From: Acidobacteriota bacterium
GTDB taxonomy: Bacteria; Acidobacteriota; Blastocatellia; UBA7656
Length of the DNA: 64,000 nucleotides
Direction: 5' to 3'
Assembly: GCA_040754075.1 (NCBI GenBank)
Contig: JBFMDH010000001.1
Span: forward strand, 102,262-166,261
Shown here: piece after piece, positions 10,317-23,476 of the stretch
Numbering within the stretch: position 1 is the stretch's first letter
Layout: every line of letters begins with the position of its first letter
The notes under the pieces: model-generated
What the model was told of the DNA's origin: nothing
Database searches by the model: none
The model's input: only the letters and a program-made list of their open reading frames with translations
Program-made: the position numbers and the translations under genes

Positions 10317-11369
10317 TCAGTGACGGTTTAAAAAGGGAATAAGGGGGTTGACAAATGATATTTGCAGCATCTGAAAAACGCTATCGATGTTGCAGGCAAG
10401 CGCGTGTTCCGCCGGATTGTGTGCGGCTTCCCCTGCAAAATGCAACCCCACCGCTACATTTTTCTCATCCGTGTCGGTGTCAATCAACCAGAGACTGCCG
10501 GAATCCCCACTACCGCTGATTTCTCCCGTTAAAGGTTTTTTGTCAGGGTTGGGGCGAATTTCAAACCCGGCTACCTGGCGTTCACCCAAACTCCCCTGAT
10601 AATTATTTTTAAATATCCCCAGACAATTCACGATTCCATAGGTCACTGCGGTTGTTCTGCCTGATTTCACTACCTTGTCGTTCAGATTTGGAATCGCGAT
10701 ACGCCGGGGAGTGATGTTTAATCCCAAAATATTTTCGTTGATGCCGCGTTCGGAAATGCTGGCTATCGCACAGTCTCCCTCTATTCCTAAATGGCTTCTA
10801 ATTAACTTGCCGGTAAGGTTTGAAAACACCTGGTTAGAGTCGTTTTTACTTGGCTGAACGATTTTATTCCCGGCTTTTCCCTGTTCACCACAAAGTATAT
10901 GCCAGTTGCTCAAAAGGTAAGGCGTGCCGTTTAACGCATCATAAACAATGGCACCGATGGTTCCTGAAAGCGACAAACTGATGTTGCCGACGCTGATACC
11001 AGGGCGTAAGGTGCTGAAACGCGACCGGCGCGAGGGTTCAGCGGCTGCGAGGGTAGGTAAAGGTTCCGGCAAAGTTGCTTCATTGAGGATTTTATGGGAG
11101 AGGCGATATGAACGCGCAACGACATCCGTAGGAATCGCAACATCATCCTGGTCAATGAATGCGGAAGGCAAAGGTTGCATGCCCTCAGCTTCCAGCCTTT
11201 CAATAGATAATTTATTTTTTACGGTAAACCGTATCGCCAGTTCATCTGTAAGCTGGAGGTCTTTGATTTTGTATGCGACTCCGACCGACGTCACATTAGG
11301 CAAATCGAGGTATTTAACCGCGTTTCGCTCGATAAATTCTAATAATTCTTCTTCGGTTTTCTTTGACAT
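10317..11369 (-). CDS. Trypsin-fold serine protease
   Basis: This is a 350-residue protein; its start has GAGGA six bases upstream. The first 100 residues form a separate N-terminal region with a TSVGVAYKIKD motif. From about residue 120 there is a chymotrypsin/trypsin-like fold with an apparently complete triad: His157 in LLSNWHIL, Asp199 in EGDCAIAS and Ser290 in GSGDSGSLW. There is no signal peptide or membrane segment, so it is expected in the cytoplasm, which is unusual for this fold. It is the last gene of the sigma-CHAT-unknown-protease unit, with gaps of 79, 64 and 153 bases. Pairing of CHAT and trypsin-like effectors is known in bacterial signalling and conflict systems; that this one acts downstream of the CHAT protein is inference. 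Confidence 0.75.
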   Translation of the reverse strand: MSKKTEEELLEFIERNAVKYLDLPNVTSVGVAYKIKDLQLTDELAIRFTVKNKLSIERLEAEGMQPLPSAFIDQDDVAIPTDVVARSYRLSHKILNEATLPEPLPTLAAAEPSRRSRFSTLRPGISVGNISLSLSGTIGAIVYDALNGTPYLLSNWHILCGEQGKAGNKIVQPSKNDSNQVFSNLTGKLIRSHLGIEGDCAIASISERGINENILGLNITPRRIAIPNLNDKVVKSGRTTAVTYGIVNCLGIFKNNYQGSLGERQVAGFEIRPNPDKKPLTGEISGSGDSGSLWLIDTDTDEKNVAVGLHFAGEAAHNPAEHALACNIDSVFQMLQISFVNPLIPFLNRH

Positions 11370-11522
11370 ATAACAGTCCTCACTTTTCCAAAATTACTGA
11401 TACGCTGTCGCTGTATGCAAATTGGTTGGGGAGGCGCGGGGGCTACCAACCGGGCTATTGCCCCCATTTTTTTAATGGTCTACTTAAAACGGGTGTTGAC
11501 ACAGAAAATTTCTGGTTCCGGG

Positions 11523-12353
11523 TCAAGGCGCTCGGTTGCCTCCCATACAGGGAATCAACGGATCGCCTTCGGAGACGCTTGCCGTATCGGTCTCGGGGTC
11601 AGGTTGTAAATCAACTTTGTGGTCTTCATCCAGACCTAACGATAAGGCATGGTAAAGTAACTTGAAATCGCTGTGGCAGATGTCATCGGGGATGCAATCC
11701 CGATCAATTTCAATCAAATAGTTCAGCGGGTCTGATGCCTGAAATTCATAAAGAACATTCGAGCCATTCTTAAAAATCGCTTTAACGCCATGTTCAAGTT
11801 CGATGTCAATGGCAAGGGTATGCGCCATATGTCCGAATAAGTCGATTTGTCCGCCTTGAACGCTGAAGGCTCTGCCAAGGCTGACACTCCCCGTATAAAA
11901 AATTCCTTTATTGAAGTAGATCGTCGGCGCTAATTCAGTCGGATCGAGGTGCGCCGAACATTTGCGCCCCAGTAGATCATCCAAATCAACGACCCAACCG
12001 AAATCCATATCCGGACGATCAGATGACGTGACATTGTTTAAATCAGGCAGCGTTCTTCGGTTAAAGGGCTGTTGAGAGAGGGAGTCGGAGCGGTATACCT
12101 GTATCCCCGGTTGAGTAACCCGGTTTACCAGAATTGAAAAGTCCTGATGGTAATCGGGGCTGATTTCGATAAGCTGATTTTTTTCCGGGTCTTTATCATT
12201 CCTGATTTTCAAGGTAATGTTCATGCGGTGATTGGGAGCGTTACGCAGCAAACCGATGTCCGCTTGTGAACTGCCGTCCACGATATTACTGATGAACATA
12301 CCGCTGGCAATGACTCGGATTTTCGGGCAATGTGGCAAGATATTTGTGGGCAT
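11523..12353 (-). CDS. Unrecognised 276-residue protein of the CHAT cassette
   Basis: I do not recognise this family. The start is well supported by AAGGAGA upstream of the ATG. The protein has no signal peptide or membrane helix, appears mostly beta-stranded, and has a central stretch (DFGWVVDLDDLLGRK) and an acidic tail (residues about 240-265, rich in D, E, P and T). Its position between the CHAT protease and the trypsin-like protease suggests it is a substrate, adaptor or inhibitor of one of them. That is inference from order alone. Confidence 0.6.
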   Translation of the reverse strand: MPTNILPHCPKIRVIASGMFISNIVDGSSQADIGLLRNAPNHRMNITLKIRNDKDPEKNQLIEISPDYHQDFSILVNRVTQPGIQVYRSDSLSQQPFNRRTLPDLNNVTSSDRPDMDFGWVVDLDDLLGRKCSAHLDPTELAPTIYFNKGIFYTGSVSLGRAFSVQGGQIDLFGHMAHTLAIDIELEHGVKAIFKNGSNVLYEFQASDPLNYLIEIDRDCIPDDICHSDFKLLYHALSLGLDEDHKVDLQPDPETDTASVSEGDPLIPCMGGNRAP

Positions 12354-12417
12354 GAGGGTCTCCTTTGCAAATTCGCATTTAAAGTAATGATGGGTATGCA
12401 GCTTGCGCCCGTGGTAA

Positions 12418-15400
12418 TCAAAAACCGGCGCATCCGCCGATGGTTACAAATGCTGCCCAGTAATAAGGTGAATGAATTCTCTCATCCGGCGCTTGCAGAA
12501 TATCCAATTGCGCTTGCCTTAATGCGGCTACTGTGGACATGCCGTTTTTCTTACGATATTGATGAAAAGCGATCATTAAATCTTTGGTCGTAGGCGAATC
12601 CACCGCCCAGAGGCTGGCTACGACCAGCGGAATGCTTTTGGCTATAAAAGGGCGCGCAATACCAAGCATTCCTGCTCCGTAGTATCCTTCTACGGCGGTA
12701 CTACAGGCAGATAAGATAACCAGTCTTGGGCGCTTGAGATTCAAGTTGTAGATTTCACCGCAAGTCAATTCGCTGGTTGCGTCCTCTGATAGAGGGGAAG
12801 AAGATGATGGACTTGTCAGTAATAGCTTAGATAATAGCGGGGACTTTTCATGGATAATGGAATGCAGGGCTAAATGAATGATGTCAACTCTCGCCATCTC
12901 ACGTTCAATCGGTTTTTTTATCGCCCGTTTGCCAACCAAACAGGACGAATCGGGAGCGTAGAAACGTTTTATGTTTTCTGCTTCTGTACCGGCTGATGGT
13001 AAATCCTCCAGGTCAGGAAAACGCTGGTGATCAAAAGCCGGGTTGCCAACGCTCAGTAAGCGTTCGTTTTTGACCCCTTGCTTTTCCAGTGCCGCTATCG
13101 AACTGAGAATGAAAAGCGTCGAGCTTGGCGCTACACAGAGTTTGAATTCTTCGAGTAAATATTTTTGTGATGGTTCAGAGAAGAGAGCGGCAAAAGGAAT
13201 ACGATTAAGAATTTTATCGGGGACAATACACAACTGCTTGTTTTTATCCAACCACCCCTCAATGGGTTCGATGAGAATTTTATAGAGTTCCTCAGAGCTT
13301 TGTTTGAGTTCAAGGCGATTTCCTTGAGGCGATTTTTTTATTAAATCAAGATAACCGGCGATGTCGTGGTTTAAAGCGTTAATATCGATTGGCGATTTTT
13401 GGCTTGAAAAATTATCTCTGGAGAGAACCCAAACAATCAAACCGCTGTCCATGACCTGGTACTGAACGATTTGTGCTTCTTGAGGCAATTGCGCCTGGAT
13501 TTCTCCCAACCCCATCGGTTGCACAGGAAAATCCATCTCTGACTCGGAACTGGTTAAGGGAGCGGTTTTGAGAGAACTGGTACTGGCTAAATCCAGTAAC
13601 GACCTTGCCCGGCATTTTTCTGAATATTCAAAGGCTCTTTGAGGATTCCCCTTTATTGAAAATTCATGATCGATGGCGGCATCAAATACTGCCTGCTCGC
13701 TCTCGAAAAAAGAATCGCGATTATTCTGCTCCCGGATGGTTGAACGGTGGCGATCAAAAATGTTTAGTGTGGTTTCTAAAGTTTTATCAAAAGATGAACA
13801 TTCCCCTTGCGCGATGCACGATAACAGTTTCCCGGAGAAAGCGGAGTAATCAAAAGCTTTGAAACCCAGTGACTCATAAAGCTCAATGGCTTGATCATAA
13901 TCCTGGATAGCCGCGTTGTACTCTTTTTTTAGTTTATATAAGTTAGCGCGTTGTAGAAATGATTGGGCAAGAGCGTTTTGGGAAGCTCGTTCATCAGGAA
14001 GCGATTTGCCCAGTTCAATGGCTTTCTCCACATTATTCAGGGCTTCCTGGAAATCACCTTGATCAGCATAAGTCGCCCCCAGCAGGGCATAGGAACGCCA
14101 GATGAATAACGGCGCGTTCAAGTCCCGGGCAATCTGTAGCGCCTGTTTCTGATATTCGATAGCCGAGGTGTGTAATCCCAGTTTACCAAGCGGTTGCGCA
14201 ATGGAAATATAAGCTCGCCATTTTTGTCTGGGTGCGGCTGGAAAGGCATTCAGCAGTTGAAGGTTACGAAGATAAAAATTTAATGACCTGGAATAATCTT
14301 TCAGGTAAAAAAATTCAGACCCTAATTGGTGTAAAGCTTTTGCCTGAGCATCGGGATTTTCTAACTCTTCTGCCAGGGTTAAAGCCGCATTACTTTTGTA
14401 AATGGCTTTAGAGTAATCCCAAAAGGACATATGGGCAATGGCGATGCCCTGAAGAATTTGCGAGGTGAACCACTTGTACTTTTTTGCCACGCAGGTTTTT
14501 AATGCCTGTTCAAATGTGGAAAACGCCCAAGCCGGATCAGACTTTAATAAATAAGCATGCCCTAACAGATAATCAACCAAAACTTCGTCGGGGCGGTCTC
14601 CGCCATTTTGCATGATTGCTCTACCGCTTCGGTAATCTTCTATGGCTTCTTCTATTCTCTCGTTCAGGATATGCTGTTGCCCGCGCTTTAAAATCTCATA
14701 GGCTTGGGCGATTTCCCTTTTTTTTATATGGCTAGAAGATTGATAGAAATTTGCTAAGTCATAGATGAAACAATCCCCGGTTTTTTGTTTGAGCAATTGA
14801 CCGAGGTATGACAACGCTTCAAGTCGTTCCTCAGCCCGGTCTTCCTGATTTTCCAGGCAAAGGTTGAAGTATCCGGTAATTAACTGATGCTCAATCTTGC
14901 CGCCGGTAACCTCATAATTTTGACGAATCAAATCCCAAATGGCGGGGTTATCTTGAATTTGGTAAGCGATGAGAAAATTTTGAAATAATTCTTCCTCGCT
15001 CCTGGAATTTTGTTTACGTTTATTTTGGATTTCTTCAATTCTCTCTTGCGCTTCGCTTGCCCATTTCGATGCCCGGTCTTTTTCGAGATACTTTTGCCAA
15101 GCCTCTTCTTGAGAGGCTTCAGACATATCCATCTCTTGCCTGAGAATCGCCAGGTTGAAAAGGGCAGTCAGCAGAGAGCCATCCAGTTCGAGAGCTTTTT
15201 GAAGATGCTCGAAACTTTTTCCAAATGCCAGACCGCTTTGCGCCGTTTCAATCTTTTTCTCGCGTTCTTGCCTTTTGCTCAGTTTACCCGTTTCCAAATA
15301 TGCCGCGCCGAGATCGCTGTGGATTTTGGCGTCGTTGGGGCTTTTCGTTAAGGCTTTCTCGAAATTCTCAATCGCTTTCTCGAAATCTCCGGTCGCTAAG

Positions 15401-16086
15401 TAATACTCGCCGAGCGCGTGATAGGCGGGGGCGCTCTGCTCGTTGATTGCCGCTTGCCGCAAGGTGATCTCTGCCGCTTCGAGTTTCTGTTTGTCGGTGA
15501 CGGCGTCTTGCGCGCCTCGGGTGGTGATTTTCGGAGCGTATTCATCCAATGCCGAAATGCGCGCTTCGAGCGGTCGCTGTCCGCGATATGCCTCTTTTAA
15601 TGCCACCAGTCCTTTATCGACATCCGATTGATAAAAATAGCTGCGCCATACCAGAAACGTGATGCCAAACGCGAAAATCAATAACGCCGCAGCGCGCAGA
15701 TAATTACTGGTCGCCGCCCTTCTCCACCAATTGACCCGTAGGGTTGACGGGATGATGACCGGCTCTTTTTTTTGTGAGTCGGGCAGCGGTTCATCATCTG
15801 TGACCGGCGCAAGTTCATCTGCCGCGAACTTCCGCAAATTCATCACCAGAGTGACTTGCGCGCGACCTTCGGGCGTGTTCAAAAAAGCGCGCGCGAATTT
15901 TTCACGTTCGTCTGCGGTCAACGTTTCACGGACGTATTCCTCAATCAAATCGTCTTCGGTGAGTTCCACTTCGTCAAAAAATTCTTTATCGGTGAGCAGG
16001 CGTTGCTCGACCCGTTCGCGCTCGTCTTCCGGTAACTCGCCAAGCAAGTATTGTCTGATTAAAGCTTGCTCCTTACGCTCTTCCAT
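12418..16086 (-). CDS. Membrane-anchored TPR-CHAT protease with anti-sigma-like N-terminus
   Basis: This is a 1222-residue protein; GAGGAAG precedes the ATG. Residues 1-90 are an acidic helical segment (QYLLGELPEDERERVEQRLL) like the anti-sigma-like heads seen in acidobacterial proteins, but without the zinc-binding His/Cys set. A single transmembrane helix follows at about 131-148. Tetratricopeptide repeats fill roughly 200-840 (for example YHALGEYYLATGDFEKAIENFEKAL). The C-terminal third is a caspase-like CHAT domain with His1075 in HLALHS and Cys1128 in LSACST, plus the late motif SPYYWAAFV. CHAT domains are cysteine peptidases usually switched on by their sensor region. The gene lies 79 bases after an ECF sigma gene, so membrane-coupled control of that sigma factor is a reasonable inference. 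Confidence 0.85.
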   Translation of the reverse strand: MEERKEQALIRQYLLGELPEDERERVEQRLLTDKEFFDEVELTEDDLIEEYVRETLTADEREKFARAFLNTPEGRAQVTLVMNLRKFAADELAPVTDDEPLPDSQKKEPVIIPSTLRVNWWRRAATSNYLRAAALLIFAFGITFLVWRSYFYQSDVDKGLVALKEAYRGQRPLEARISALDEYAPKITTRGAQDAVTDKQKLEAAEITLRQAAINEQSAPAYHALGEYYLATGDFEKAIENFEKALTKSPNDAKIHSDLGAAYLETGKLSKRQEREKKIETAQSGLAFGKSFEHLQKALELDGSLLTALFNLAILRQEMDMSEASQEEAWQKYLEKDRASKWASEAQERIEEIQNKRKQNSRSEEELFQNFLIAYQIQDNPAIWDLIRQNYEVTGGKIEHQLITGYFNLCLENQEDRAEERLEALSYLGQLLKQKTGDCFIYDLANFYQSSSHIKKREIAQAYEILKRGQQHILNERIEEAIEDYRSGRAIMQNGGDRPDEVLVDYLLGHAYLLKSDPAWAFSTFEQALKTCVAKKYKWFTSQILQGIAIAHMSFWDYSKAIYKSNAALTLAEELENPDAQAKALHQLGSEFFYLKDYSRSLNFYLRNLQLLNAFPAAPRQKWRAYISIAQPLGKLGLHTSAIEYQKQALQIARDLNAPLFIWRSYALLGATYADQGDFQEALNNVEKAIELGKSLPDERASQNALAQSFLQRANLYKLKKEYNAAIQDYDQAIELYESLGFKAFDYSAFSGKLLSCIAQGECSSFDKTLETTLNIFDRHRSTIREQNNRDSFFESEQAVFDAAIDHEFSIKGNPQRAFEYSEKCRARSLLDLASTSSLKTAPLTSSESEMDFPVQPMGLGEIQAQLPQEAQIVQYQVMDSGLIVWVLSRDNFSSQKSPIDINALNHDIAGYLDLIKKSPQGNRLELKQSSEELYKILIEPIEGWLDKNKQLCIVPDKILNRIPFAALFSEPSQKYLLEEFKLCVAPSSTLFILSSIAALEKQGVKNERLLSVGNPAFDHQRFPDLEDLPSAGTEAENIKRFYAPDSSCLVGKRAIKKPIEREMARVDIIHLALHSIIHEKSPLLSKLLLTSPSSSSPLSEDATSELTCGEIYNLNLKRPRLVILSACSTAVEGYYGAGMLGIARPFIAKSIPLVVASLWAVDSPTTKDLMIAFHQYRKKNGMSTVAALRQAQLDILQAPDERIHSPYYWAAFVTIGGCAGF

Positions 16087-16165
16087 TTACACTTCCTCAA
16101 ACTCAAAGTGATAGCTCAAGCCTTTTCATCCGGTTATGGTTTCGGTTAATAAAATATTACAAATG

Positions 16166-16747
16166 CTATGCTGTCAGGTTCTTTAGACAGCCGAATATGC
16201 AGGTTTGCAATTCCGTTTTCAGGCGATGAATTTTTACCCGTAAATGATTGAGTGAAATATTTAAGGAATCGGCAATCTCGCGCCGATGATCAATTTTGGC
16301 GCGATGATTATCTTGAAAATAATGAATGATCAAGCGGCGGTCTTCATTGCTCAATTCATTCAGGCAATGCTCCAGACATTCCCAATGCTTTTCCTGATAT
16401 GAACGATATTCCTCATCGTTATCATCCGGCAGTTGAGGTGGTAAGGGTTCGGGGTCAACCTTTTTCTTGTGATATTCGTGCAAGACATTTTTCGCCACCC
16501 CGTAAAAATAGAGCGCCGGGTCGCCCACATAATTGTCAGCGATGTCGTGGACTTTGCGGCAGACGCGGTCTATGGTTTCATCGGCTAACTCTTCGGAAAT
16601 CAGACAACCGCGTCGCGTGAAAATTTTGATTAAGCCAAAGCGAATCTCTTCATACTTGATGCCCGCGCGTTCACGTTCCGGGTGGAGCCACACCAGCAGT
16701 TTCTCGAAATTTTGATTATCCGAAAAAGATGAGGATAATTTACGCAA
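16166..16747 (-). CDS. ECF-type RNA polymerase sigma factor
   Basis: This is a 193-residue protein. No ATG occurs in the frame before the conserved region and a stop lies 18 codons before the TTG at 16747, so TTG is the most likely start. The region-2 part includes ADETIDRVCRKVHDIADNYVGDPALYFYGVAKNVLHEY. The region-4 part (EDRRLIIHYFQ...HRREIADSLNISLNHLRVKIHRLK) has a helix-turn-helix with the usual ALNIS-like core. The layout resembles the acidobacterial and planctomycete ECF groups found beside kinases or CHAT proteins. It leads the cassette ending at 10317. No zinc-type anti-sigma gene is adjacent; the head of the TPR-CHAT protein may play that part. Confidence 0.85.
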   Translation of the reverse strand: MRKLSSSFSDNQNFEKLLVWLHPERERAGIKYEEIRFGLIKIFTRRGCLISEELADETIDRVCRKVHDIADNYVGDPALYFYGVAKNVLHEYHKKKVDPEPLPPQLPDDNDEEYRSYQEKHWECLEHCLNELSNEDRRLIIHYFQDNHRAKIDHRREIADSLNISLNHLRVKIHRLKTELQTCIFGCLKNLTA

Positions 16748-22124: not shown

Positions 22125-22670
22125 TTGGCTACATCGGCGACGGATTTGCAATTACAAAAATTTGAACGTGATGCGATGACGCACCTTGACGCCTTGATGC
22201 GAATGGCAAGTAAACTTTCGCGTAATCGCACGGATGCCGAAGACATCGTTCAGGAAACCTACCTGCGTGCCTGGAAATATTTTGATTCCTTTGAGGCCGG
22301 GTCAAACTGTCGCGCCTGGTTATTTCGGATTATGTTTAACGTGATTAATCTTCGTGAAGGCAAAAAGACCAAACTCGCGGAAACTTCTCTTGAAGATGAA
22401 GAGCGCAGCGTCGAATATGAACGCAGCAACGTCATCGCCTTCGACCCGTTAAAGCAAATCGAAGGTCGCGAGTTGCTCGACGCCACTCGCCAGCTTTCCG
22501 AAGAGTATCGCGCCGTGTTGTGGTTGATTGTCGTTGAAGAGTTTTCCTATAAGGAAGCCGCAGAGATTTTAAATGTGCCGATTGGGACGGTGATGTCCAG
22601 GTTGCATCGCGCCCGTAGAGATTTGCGCAAGCTGATGCTCACGGATAAAGCGCGAAGCGCAGGGAATTGA
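22125..22670 (+). CDS. ECF RNA polymerase sigma factor
   Basis: This is a 181-residue sigma-70 family protein with clear region 2 (DAEDIVQETYLRAWKYFDSF, then CRAWLFRIMFNVI) and region 4 (LWLIVVEEFSYKEAAEILN, VPIGTVMSRLHRARRDL). The start is uncertain: TTG 22125 gives the usual length, while an ATG 17 codons later would trim region 2. The zinc-type anti-sigma gene starts at or just after its stop, a standard ECF/anti-sigma pair. What it senses is not visible from sequence. Confidence 0.9.
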   Translation: MATSATDLQLQKFERDAMTHLDALMRMASKLSRNRTDAEDIVQETYLRAWKYFDSFEAGSNCRAWLFRIMFNVINLREGKKTKLAETSLEDEERSVEYERSNVIAFDPLKQIEGRELLDATRQLSEEYRAVLWLIVVEEFSYKEAAEILNVPIGTVMSRLHRARRDLRKLMLTDKARSAGN

Positions 22671-22675
22671 TTGCG

Positions 22676-23476
22676 ATGGGGAGCGGTGAAACCGTAAGGC
22701 TTATGAATTGTGCTGAAGCCAGAGAATTAATTCAGTTGTATTTGGATGATGAACTCAGTTCGCGTGACGCGCTGGTGGTTCAACAACACCTCGACGCCTG
22801 TTCCGCCTGCGCCAGCCTGCTGGATTATTTCAGCAAACAGGATGCAGCCCTGAGAGCCTCCGCCAAACTGGAACCCGCCAACAATGAATTGCTTGCTGCA
22901 CGAATCCGTTTAAGCATTCGCAAAGAAACTGCTGCGCCGCGAAAACGGCTATGGTGGTCGGTTTCAGGGCGACACGCGACTTTGCGCAGAGTTGCCGCGC
23001 TGGTGATTGTCGCGGTGGTGATTGCCTTTTTCCTGCTTCGCGGCACGCCGATAAACGATAAGGTTTATGCTGATGCGGTTTTGGATCACGCAGATCATTG
23101 CGCGATTGCAAGATTAAGCAAAGCCGTCAGTGACCCGAATGAATTAAACCGCCTGGTTGAAGTCAACAGCGCCTTGACGGCAATTCCCGATTTATCAACC
23201 TTCGGATATGCAAATCCACGCGCAGTGATTTGCCGCATCGGTAATAAAAAGGTGCTGCATCTGGTTTATCAAAGTGACCACCAACAACCGCTCTCGCTGT
23301 TTATGCGTATGCGGGATGAGCGATTGGTTGGTGATGACCTGGTGACGATGAATAAAGAAGGTTATCGCGTAGCGTCCGTGTCAAAAGCCGGAACCGATTT
23401 GTTGGTTGTCGCTTCGCTTGATGAAAAACAGACCGCTGCCATTGCCAATGCCGTCGCCTCGCACTTTTCAAACTGA
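22676..23476 (+). CDS. Membrane zinc-binding anti-sigma factor
   Basis: This encodes about 266 residues from ATG 22676, which has AGGGA ten bases upstream; a TTG at 22667 would overlap the sigma stop. The N-terminal zf-HC2/ZAS domain has Cys12, His38, Cys42 and Cys45 in the order C...HxxxCxxC. One transmembrane helix follows at about 104-122 (VAALVIVAVVIAFFLL), then a periplasmic domain of about 140 residues with His/Cys near its start (DHADHCAIA). It is expected to hold the neighbouring ECF sigma factor at the membrane and release it on an extracellular or redox signal. The nearby secreted thioredoxin-fold gene makes a redox signal a plausible guess, not more. Confidence 0.85.
   Translation: MGSGETVRLMNCAEARELIQLYLDDELSSRDALVVQQHLDACSACASLLDYFSKQDAALRASAKLEPANNELLAARIRLSIRKETAAPRKRLWWSVSGRHATLRRVAALVIVAVVIAFFLLRGTPINDKVYADAVLDHADHCAIARLSKAVSDPNELNRLVEVNSALTAIPDLSTFGYANPRAVICRIGNKKVLHLVYQSDHQQPLSLFMRMRDERLVGDDLVTMNKEGYRVASVSKAGTDLLVVASLDEKQTAAIANAVASHFSN

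Follow-up and report, generated by a model that had tools for sequence, protein, structure and literature searches.

A conserved operon of sigma factor, predicted membrane TPR-CHAT and partner with a changing peptidase gene in Acidobacteriota

Four genes on the minus strand

We have re-derived the reading frames of the window (the whole 64-kb stretch of DNA analyzed) around four genes, all on the minus strand, that code for an ECF-type sigma factor (193 aa, TTG start; 16166..16747), a TPR-CHAT protein (1222 aa; 12418..16086), a protein of 276 aa (11523..12353) and a trypsin-fold protease (350 aa; 10317..11369). The intergenic gaps are 79 (sigma/CHAT), 64 (CHAT/partner) and 153 bases (partner/trypsin-fold), just as an earlier note on this DNA had given them, and the catalytic codons that it had pointed out are present in the window letters. 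The ten window neighbors scanned were ordinary, i.e., carboxypeptidase-like beta repeats, glycosyltransferases, and two-component and oxidase genes. The four proteins had no match in PADLOC except for a generic TPR model, and no CRISPR-like direct repeats (at least 22 bases, spacing up to 90 bases) were found over the whole 64 kb, in agreement with the earlier claim that no CRISPR part is present.

The sigma factor matched TIGR02937 with E=2.9e-10 (40 bits, just below the model cut-off of 42.9). The second gene is a fusion, characterized by Pfam, topology and structure comparison. The Pfam scan detected many TPRs and a CHAT domain (PF12770, E=6.1e-58; residues 929-1217, 12436..13302), preceded by a TPR superhelix at about residues 155-790 (13717..15624; Pfam and predicted structure). 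The catalytic dyad, His1075 (12862..12864) and Cys1128 (12703..12705), is intact in 39/39 aligned relatives, with CHAT identities among the fused relatives of 31–40%. A single membrane helix is predicted from hydrophobicity at residues 129-147 (15646..15702), oriented N-in/C-out by its flanking charges, which places the TPR-CHAT part outside the cytoplasm. This half of the protein has a fold match to DdvA (PDB 8rot, 8rw5) and to Csx29, and one relative (L030) matched the Csx29 family model with E=1.8e-8, below the model cut-off. Residues 1-100 (15787..16086) fall in a profile region that also covers the stand-alone anti-sigma proteins found beside the same sigma family. Three of those scanned matched NCBIfam NF052375 (E=2.8e-8, 4.1e-6, and 6.5e-4, all below its cut-off), and a structure search with these residues retrieved no solved anti-sigma structure. 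The CHAT protein is thus predicted to be itself the anti-sigma factor, and since it carries this domain no separate cleaved inhibitor would be needed.

The 276-residue protein, which the earlier note had called unrecognized, indeed gave no convincing match in Pfam, NCBIfam or PDB sequences, and its predicted structure, rich in beta strands, had no recognizable relative by fold. Its C-terminal tail is modeled with low confidence (pLDDT 51-61 in residues 251-270), and here lies a near-invariant cysteine, Cys269 (11547..11549), conserved in 39/39 sequences of one alignment and in at least 90% in two others; a cysteine somewhere within the last 30 residues is found in 38/39. Also near-invariant is His42 (12228..12230; 36/39). 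As gasdermin loci also carry assorted proteases, a gasdermin-like nature of the partner was considered, and no fold or sequence match was found for it.

The trypsin-fold protein taken alone matched only Nal1_C in Pfam (E=0.015). Its triad, His157 (10899..10901), Asp199 (10773..10775), and Ser290 (10500..10502), is complete as previously described and invariant in 7/7 sequences (the window protein and six relatives), and the family profile matched the plant NAL1 structures with E=1.3e-10. By simple signal-peptide rules no signal peptide is predicted for it, as had been noted before, nor for the partner.

Conservation of the core and exchange of the last gene

A sigma profile built from ten partner-bearing loci matched 101 of the 162 genomes of the class Blastocatellia (E<=1e-12), and 60 sigma-anchored loci were taken. 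Among the 54 higher-ranked there were 14 with an untruncated fused CHAT gene, 4 with a fused gene at a contig end and 36 with a short anti-sigma gene; the last, together with five lower-ranked loci, make up our control set of 41. All 14 untruncated fused loci have the partner. Adding ten loci found by the partner itself and the window, the order sigma, fused CHAT, partner was found in 25/25 untruncated fused loci. On the other hand, a whole partner was found in none of the 41 short-anti-sigma loci (frames of 180-420 residues, over the entire stretch around each locus); in one of them (L043) a frame of 124 residues on the opposite strand matches the C-terminal half of the partner (E=2.7e-6). 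Loci in which the fused CHAT is cut by a contig end (L067, L066, L073, L047) were not counted, the removal of L066 and L073 from 43 short-anti-sigma rows leaving the 41. Neither were L020 and L031 (contig ends), the second sigma genes of L059 and L092 (no scorable neighbor), nor L021, where the partner is present and an overlapping frame masks the sigma gene. Four further loci found by the N-terminal part of CHAT (L108, L116, L117, L118) also have the partner. In the wider phylum, an iterated profile recognized it in 11/32 CHAT loci (L119-L151 less L147), and several of the others have a protein of similar size and start in the partner position, below profile recognition. The CHAT N-terminal profile was found (E<=1e-20) in at least 45 of 396 genomes of the wider phylum, a lower bound as at most the best five candidates per genome were scored.

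Sigma factor, fused CHAT and partner are therefore a conserved operon unit of Acidobacteriota. That they are chance or housekeeping neighbors would suit the ordinary character of the ten genes scanned around them, but this explanation has next to no probability left: it is refuted by the counts, 25/25 against no whole copy in 41, at such low CHAT identities. The scattering of homologs elsewhere, which the earlier note had named as fatal to a system, did not come about because the neighbors are conserved.

Whole-genome searches with the partner sequence gave matches in 15 of the 162 genomes of the class. Besides the window there are 18 partner places (in 14 other genomes, plus two family-only places), of which 12 adjoin a CHAT gene (L020-L027, L029, L030, L033, L034), five face a TPR gene in convergent orientation (L028, L032, L035, L036, L037) and the remaining one (L031) is at a contig end. 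In a large protein database there was just one relative besides the protein itself, or four in another search, as the word search used there misses distant kin and the whole-genome searches did better. The 18 records retrieved with one sequence pattern were all Acidobacteriota, including Sulfopaludibacter, which we take to belong to this phylum. The genome of the window has 12 strong and three weak CHAT genes but only one partner gene. The partner looks like a dedicated partner of CHAT that belongs to no known family.

In the short-anti-sigma loci a separate CHAT gene is often close to the sigma gene, no more than three genes away in 28/41 and directly upstream in 18, with a C-terminal hydrophobic helix in 12 of these 18. 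The fusion found in the window joins parts that are also neighbors when separate.

The last gene is a different matter. We have counted as a follower a gene of 100 residues or more that is read in the same direction as the partner and lies no further than 300 bases behind it, and looked for it in a core set of 30 loci (the 25, L021, L108, L116, L117, and L118). Seventeen have one and 13 have none (two of these at contig ends). All but one of the 17 followers are peptidases, the exception being a protein kinase, and they belong to quite different families: seven Nal1/trypsin-fold (including the window), five subtilisins, three papain-like (C39/C70) and one caspase. Six of the 16 peptidase calls are below the Pfam cut-off or without a match, and were assigned by the shared triad (window, L083, L089, L090, L118) or by a weak C39 match and a CGPA motif (L030). 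In the wider loci 6/9 followers are peptidases, and metallopeptidases of families M91 and M36 join the list there. As a control, the gene behind the short anti-sigma gene was a peptidase in 3/10 scanned (14 eligible), so that some of the link between this sigma family and peptidases is general. On the CHAT tree of 39 loci the follower labels need at least 16 changes (subtilisin at least six, S1 only two); they are still clustered, the mean for shuffled labels being 22.5. Such a number of changes indicates that the slot has been exchanged between peptidase families. The four-gene order expected by the earlier note thus holds for sigma, CHAT and partner, with a protease following in 16/30 core loci, but the trypsin-like gene is only one option in the slot and the fixed core consists of the first three genes.

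Co-variation and possible mechanism

We have correlated pairwise distances over 25 loci, leaving out L023, L060, L083, and L089, whose CHAT frames were not usable. The sigma distances follow those of CHAT-protein residues 1-100 best (0.41) and those of the TPR and CHAT segments less (0.16-0.22). The partner behaves in the opposite way, with correlations of 0.51 and 0.43 with TPR, 0.40 with CHAT and 0.20 with residues 1-100, and sigma and partner do not follow each other at all (0.01). In 100-residue windows, the sigma correlation never exceeds 0.33 once residues 1-150 are left behind, and that of the partner drops to 0.13-0.18 in parts of 851-1000. The split is kept in partial correlations (0.48 for partner and TPR with anti-sigma held constant, 0.38 for sigma and anti-sigma with TPR held constant, and 0.03 and 0.02 for the crossed terms), which indicates that the two halves of the CHAT protein travel separately and that the partner goes with the TPR side. 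Partner-CHAT given TPR is only 0.13, while partner-TPR given CHAT is 0.36, and the jackknife range was 0.48-0.55. As far as such sequence distances go, they tie the partner to the TPR side, short of proof of contact.

The reading that we tentatively prefer, with somewhat less than even confidence, is a conserved operon in which a predicted one-pass membrane anti-sigma factor with an outer TPR-CHAT would hold on to the ECF sigma factor. A signal, in whose reading the partner likely takes part, would then free it and turn on an exchangeable protease. The sigma factor would be bound on the cytoplasmic side by residues 1-100, in the manner of DdvS and DdvA, and the partner, predicted sidedness apart, could dock on the TPR superhelix as a regulator or substrate adaptor of CHAT. 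The signal would alter this docking, CHAT would cut its own protein or the partner, and the anti-sigma domain would release its hold. The freed sigma factor would transcribe its own operon, so that partner and protease rise, and the last protease would be the output, acting on proteins of the cell or of an invader. To look for an autoregulatory promoter common to the loci, k-mers and spaced pairs were compared between the 250-base upstream regions of 58 sigma genes (leaving out 18 further ones directly behind a CHAT gene) and of 524 other genes, and nothing convincing emerged.

The main doubt about this mechanism is one of predicted sidedness, as the window partner and the trypsin-fold protein appear to lack a signal peptide while CHAT would be outside. 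For this reason, direct cleavage of the trypsin-like protein by CHAT is not supported. One way out would be export of the partner, which would then serve the outer TPR-CHAT as a ligand or lid, an accessory to the sensor, by a route that is missed by simple signal-peptide rules in Blastocatellia. Starts read by eye in proteins 3' of CHAT do include a lipobox (L034, L141), TAT-like starts (L125, L126, L128-L130, L145, L151) and a Sec-like one (L135), but only the two with a lipobox match the partner profile. Exported partner-like proteins of this kind would fit an outer CHAT; the unexported ones would not, and as most partner proteins of the class and the trypsin-like product have no export signal we find this very improbable.

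The same sidedness would favor a plain regulator of the DdvS/DdvA type, in which TPR-CHAT is only a sensor and no working protease, and partner and last protease are mere regulon members with no contact with CHAT. DdvA, a solved transmembrane anti-sigma factor of the same build, lends weight to it. Against it are the CHAT dyad, intact in every aligned relative, the partner distances, which follow TPR-CHAT and not sigma, and the lack of any whole partner in the 41 short-anti-sigma loci of the same sigma family. We consider it unlikely, if still a serious contender.

A two-step cascade similar to Craspase, starting with cleavage of the partner by activated CHAT (like that of Csx30 by Csx29) and ending with a last protease that is freed or activated by the cut product, seems rather improbable to us. 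It would agree with the fold match to Csx29, with the sub-threshold match of L030 to the Csx29 family model, with the partner-TPR co-variation, with a slot for proteases of changing catalytic type and with the partner genes found on both sides of the protease in L027 and L029. The opposite membrane sides predicted in the window, the lack of CRISPR-like repeats there and a partner without a convincing NCBIfam match speak against it.

In a wider sense, and with a good deal of reserve, the preferred operon could stand for a kind of proteolytic system, modular and new, in Acidobacteriota, with an anti-sigma/CHAT initiator receptor, a previously undescribed adaptor family with its near-invariant C-terminal Cys, and a slot into which unrelated executioner peptidases are plugged (trypsin/Nal1, subtilisin, papain-like, caspase, metallopeptidases), working without CRISPR or cyclic nucleotides. 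If so, it would be a bacterial counterpart of receptor-initiator-executioner cascades. Were the cascade true, a bacterial caspase-family initiator with an adaptor and exchangeable executioners under sigma control would bear on the origin of caspase-style signaling. In any case, a structural precedent, DdvA, is now linked to an operon set for which we found no description, and two questions are raised: what the role of the partner family is, and why the last gene changes peptidase family while the rest stays.

Comparison with known systems

The nearest precedent is the transmembrane anti-sigma factor DdvA, rather than Craspase. As expected of a sigma/transmembrane anti-sigma pair of the DdvS/DdvA type (Myxococcus xanthus), the window has the sigma gene directly before the anti-sigma gene, a predicted N-terminal anti-sigma domain (by homology and co-variation), a single predicted membrane helix and C-terminal TPR and CHAT. 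A pair of this type would also control an antiphage island. The window operon differs in the conserved partner and, often, a peptidase of changing family. The last gene of the window shares its fold family and His-Asp-Ser triad with NAL1, a plant protein for which we know of no link to sigma factors or CHAT.

Craspase (type III-E CRISPR, Csx29-Csx30-sigma), the parallel drawn by the earlier note, also combines, within a single locus, a TPR-CHAT protease with a sigma factor and additional proteins, according to the available text of PMC10028731. The likeness stands as far as the TPR-CHAT fold goes. However, the window has no CRISPR-like repeats, its CHAT is fused to a predicted anti-sigma domain of its own and a membrane helix, and for its partner, in the position of a putative counterpart of the substrate Csx30, no convincing match was obtained in Pfam, NCBIfam or PDB sequences. 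The logic of protease, anti-sigma and ECF sigma is also found in CalpL-CalpT-CalpS (PMC11417357, in the portion available). Both this system and the SAVED-CHAT proteases of type III CRISPR have Lon or SAVED modules and a cyclic oligoadenylate signal, whereas family scans of the four window proteins found neither module. In the EACC2-caspase systems a caspase domain, an ECF sigma and a TPR gene are conserved together, with trypsin-like options, in an EACC2, TRADD-N architecture, and the accessible part of the description names no transmembrane anti-sigma-CHAT fusion or partner of the window type (PMC8195603). The ECF54 sigma group has subtilase and CHAT proteins in its genetic context and, in the section available, is described without an anti-sigma factor, with an example from Geodermatophilus (PMC8999054); the window operon departs from it in having an anti-sigma-like domain. 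In the literature searched (including available parts of PMC7159879, PMC12288465, and PMC4374960) neither a CHAT gene paired with this partner nor a protease slot of changing family was described, a weak negative since most subscription papers lay outside the search. The sigma/fused-CHAT half of the operon has then a precedent in DdvA, while the partner and the changing protease slot look new.

CHAT genes separate from the anti-sigma domain

A second arrangement was found in 18 of the relative loci fetched from other Acidobacteriota genomes (L039, L041-L044, L046, L048, L052, L055, L061, L062, L064, L069, L078, L085, L091, L095 and L096). Here the CHAT gene is not fused to the anti-sigma-like domain and lies immediately 5' of the genes for the sigma factor and a short, stand-alone anti-sigma protein. 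The product of this upstream gene carries a C-terminal hydrophobic helix in 12 of the 18; several of the frames in this set end at the edge of the fetched stretch, and the lengths there are minimum values.

Variants of the fused CHAT operon

Four loci (L033, L083, L089 and L090) have an additional gene inserted between CHAT and its partner, the conserved protein of no known family encoded 3' of it. The inserted product combines a zinc-ribbon start, a membrane helix and a Pro/Thr-rich stretch, and in 4/4 it co-occurs with a membrane-anchored protease of the trypsin-fold, Nal1-like type. Another gene, of 191-198 residues, follows 3' of the protease gene in all three of L038, L133 and L150, in which the protease is papain-like. 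The partner gene itself is found as a tandem pair in L023 and L074; in L027 and L029 the protease gene sits between two partner genes, one on each side.

The fused CHAT frame is broken at a shared point, a run of nine T, in L083 and L089, which come from two genomes; a relative, L033, has a run of equal length, across which the frame is open. The break could reflect either programmed slippage or an assembly error.

Partner relatives away from fused CHAT

Relatives of the partner were also detected elsewhere. Those in L028, L032, L035, L036 (a frame cut short) and L037 are convergent with a TPR gene; four have by eye a signal-peptide-like start, and no CHAT annotation is present in the fetched stretches of these five loci. 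In L043, a 124-residue frame (10845-11219, plus strand) matches the C-terminal half of the partner. It lies ca. 1.9 kb from the short anti-sigma locus, on the opposite strand, and is perhaps a remnant.

Other features of the window

A further gene (22667-23476) encodes an anti-sigma-like domain of the zinc-finger kind (zf-HC2, E=1.4e-10). Where the CHAT gene ends, ahead of the partner, there is a terminator-like hairpin with a T tail (12424-12441), a possible site of attenuation; terminator-like sites in the region numbered 17, against 10.1 expected.
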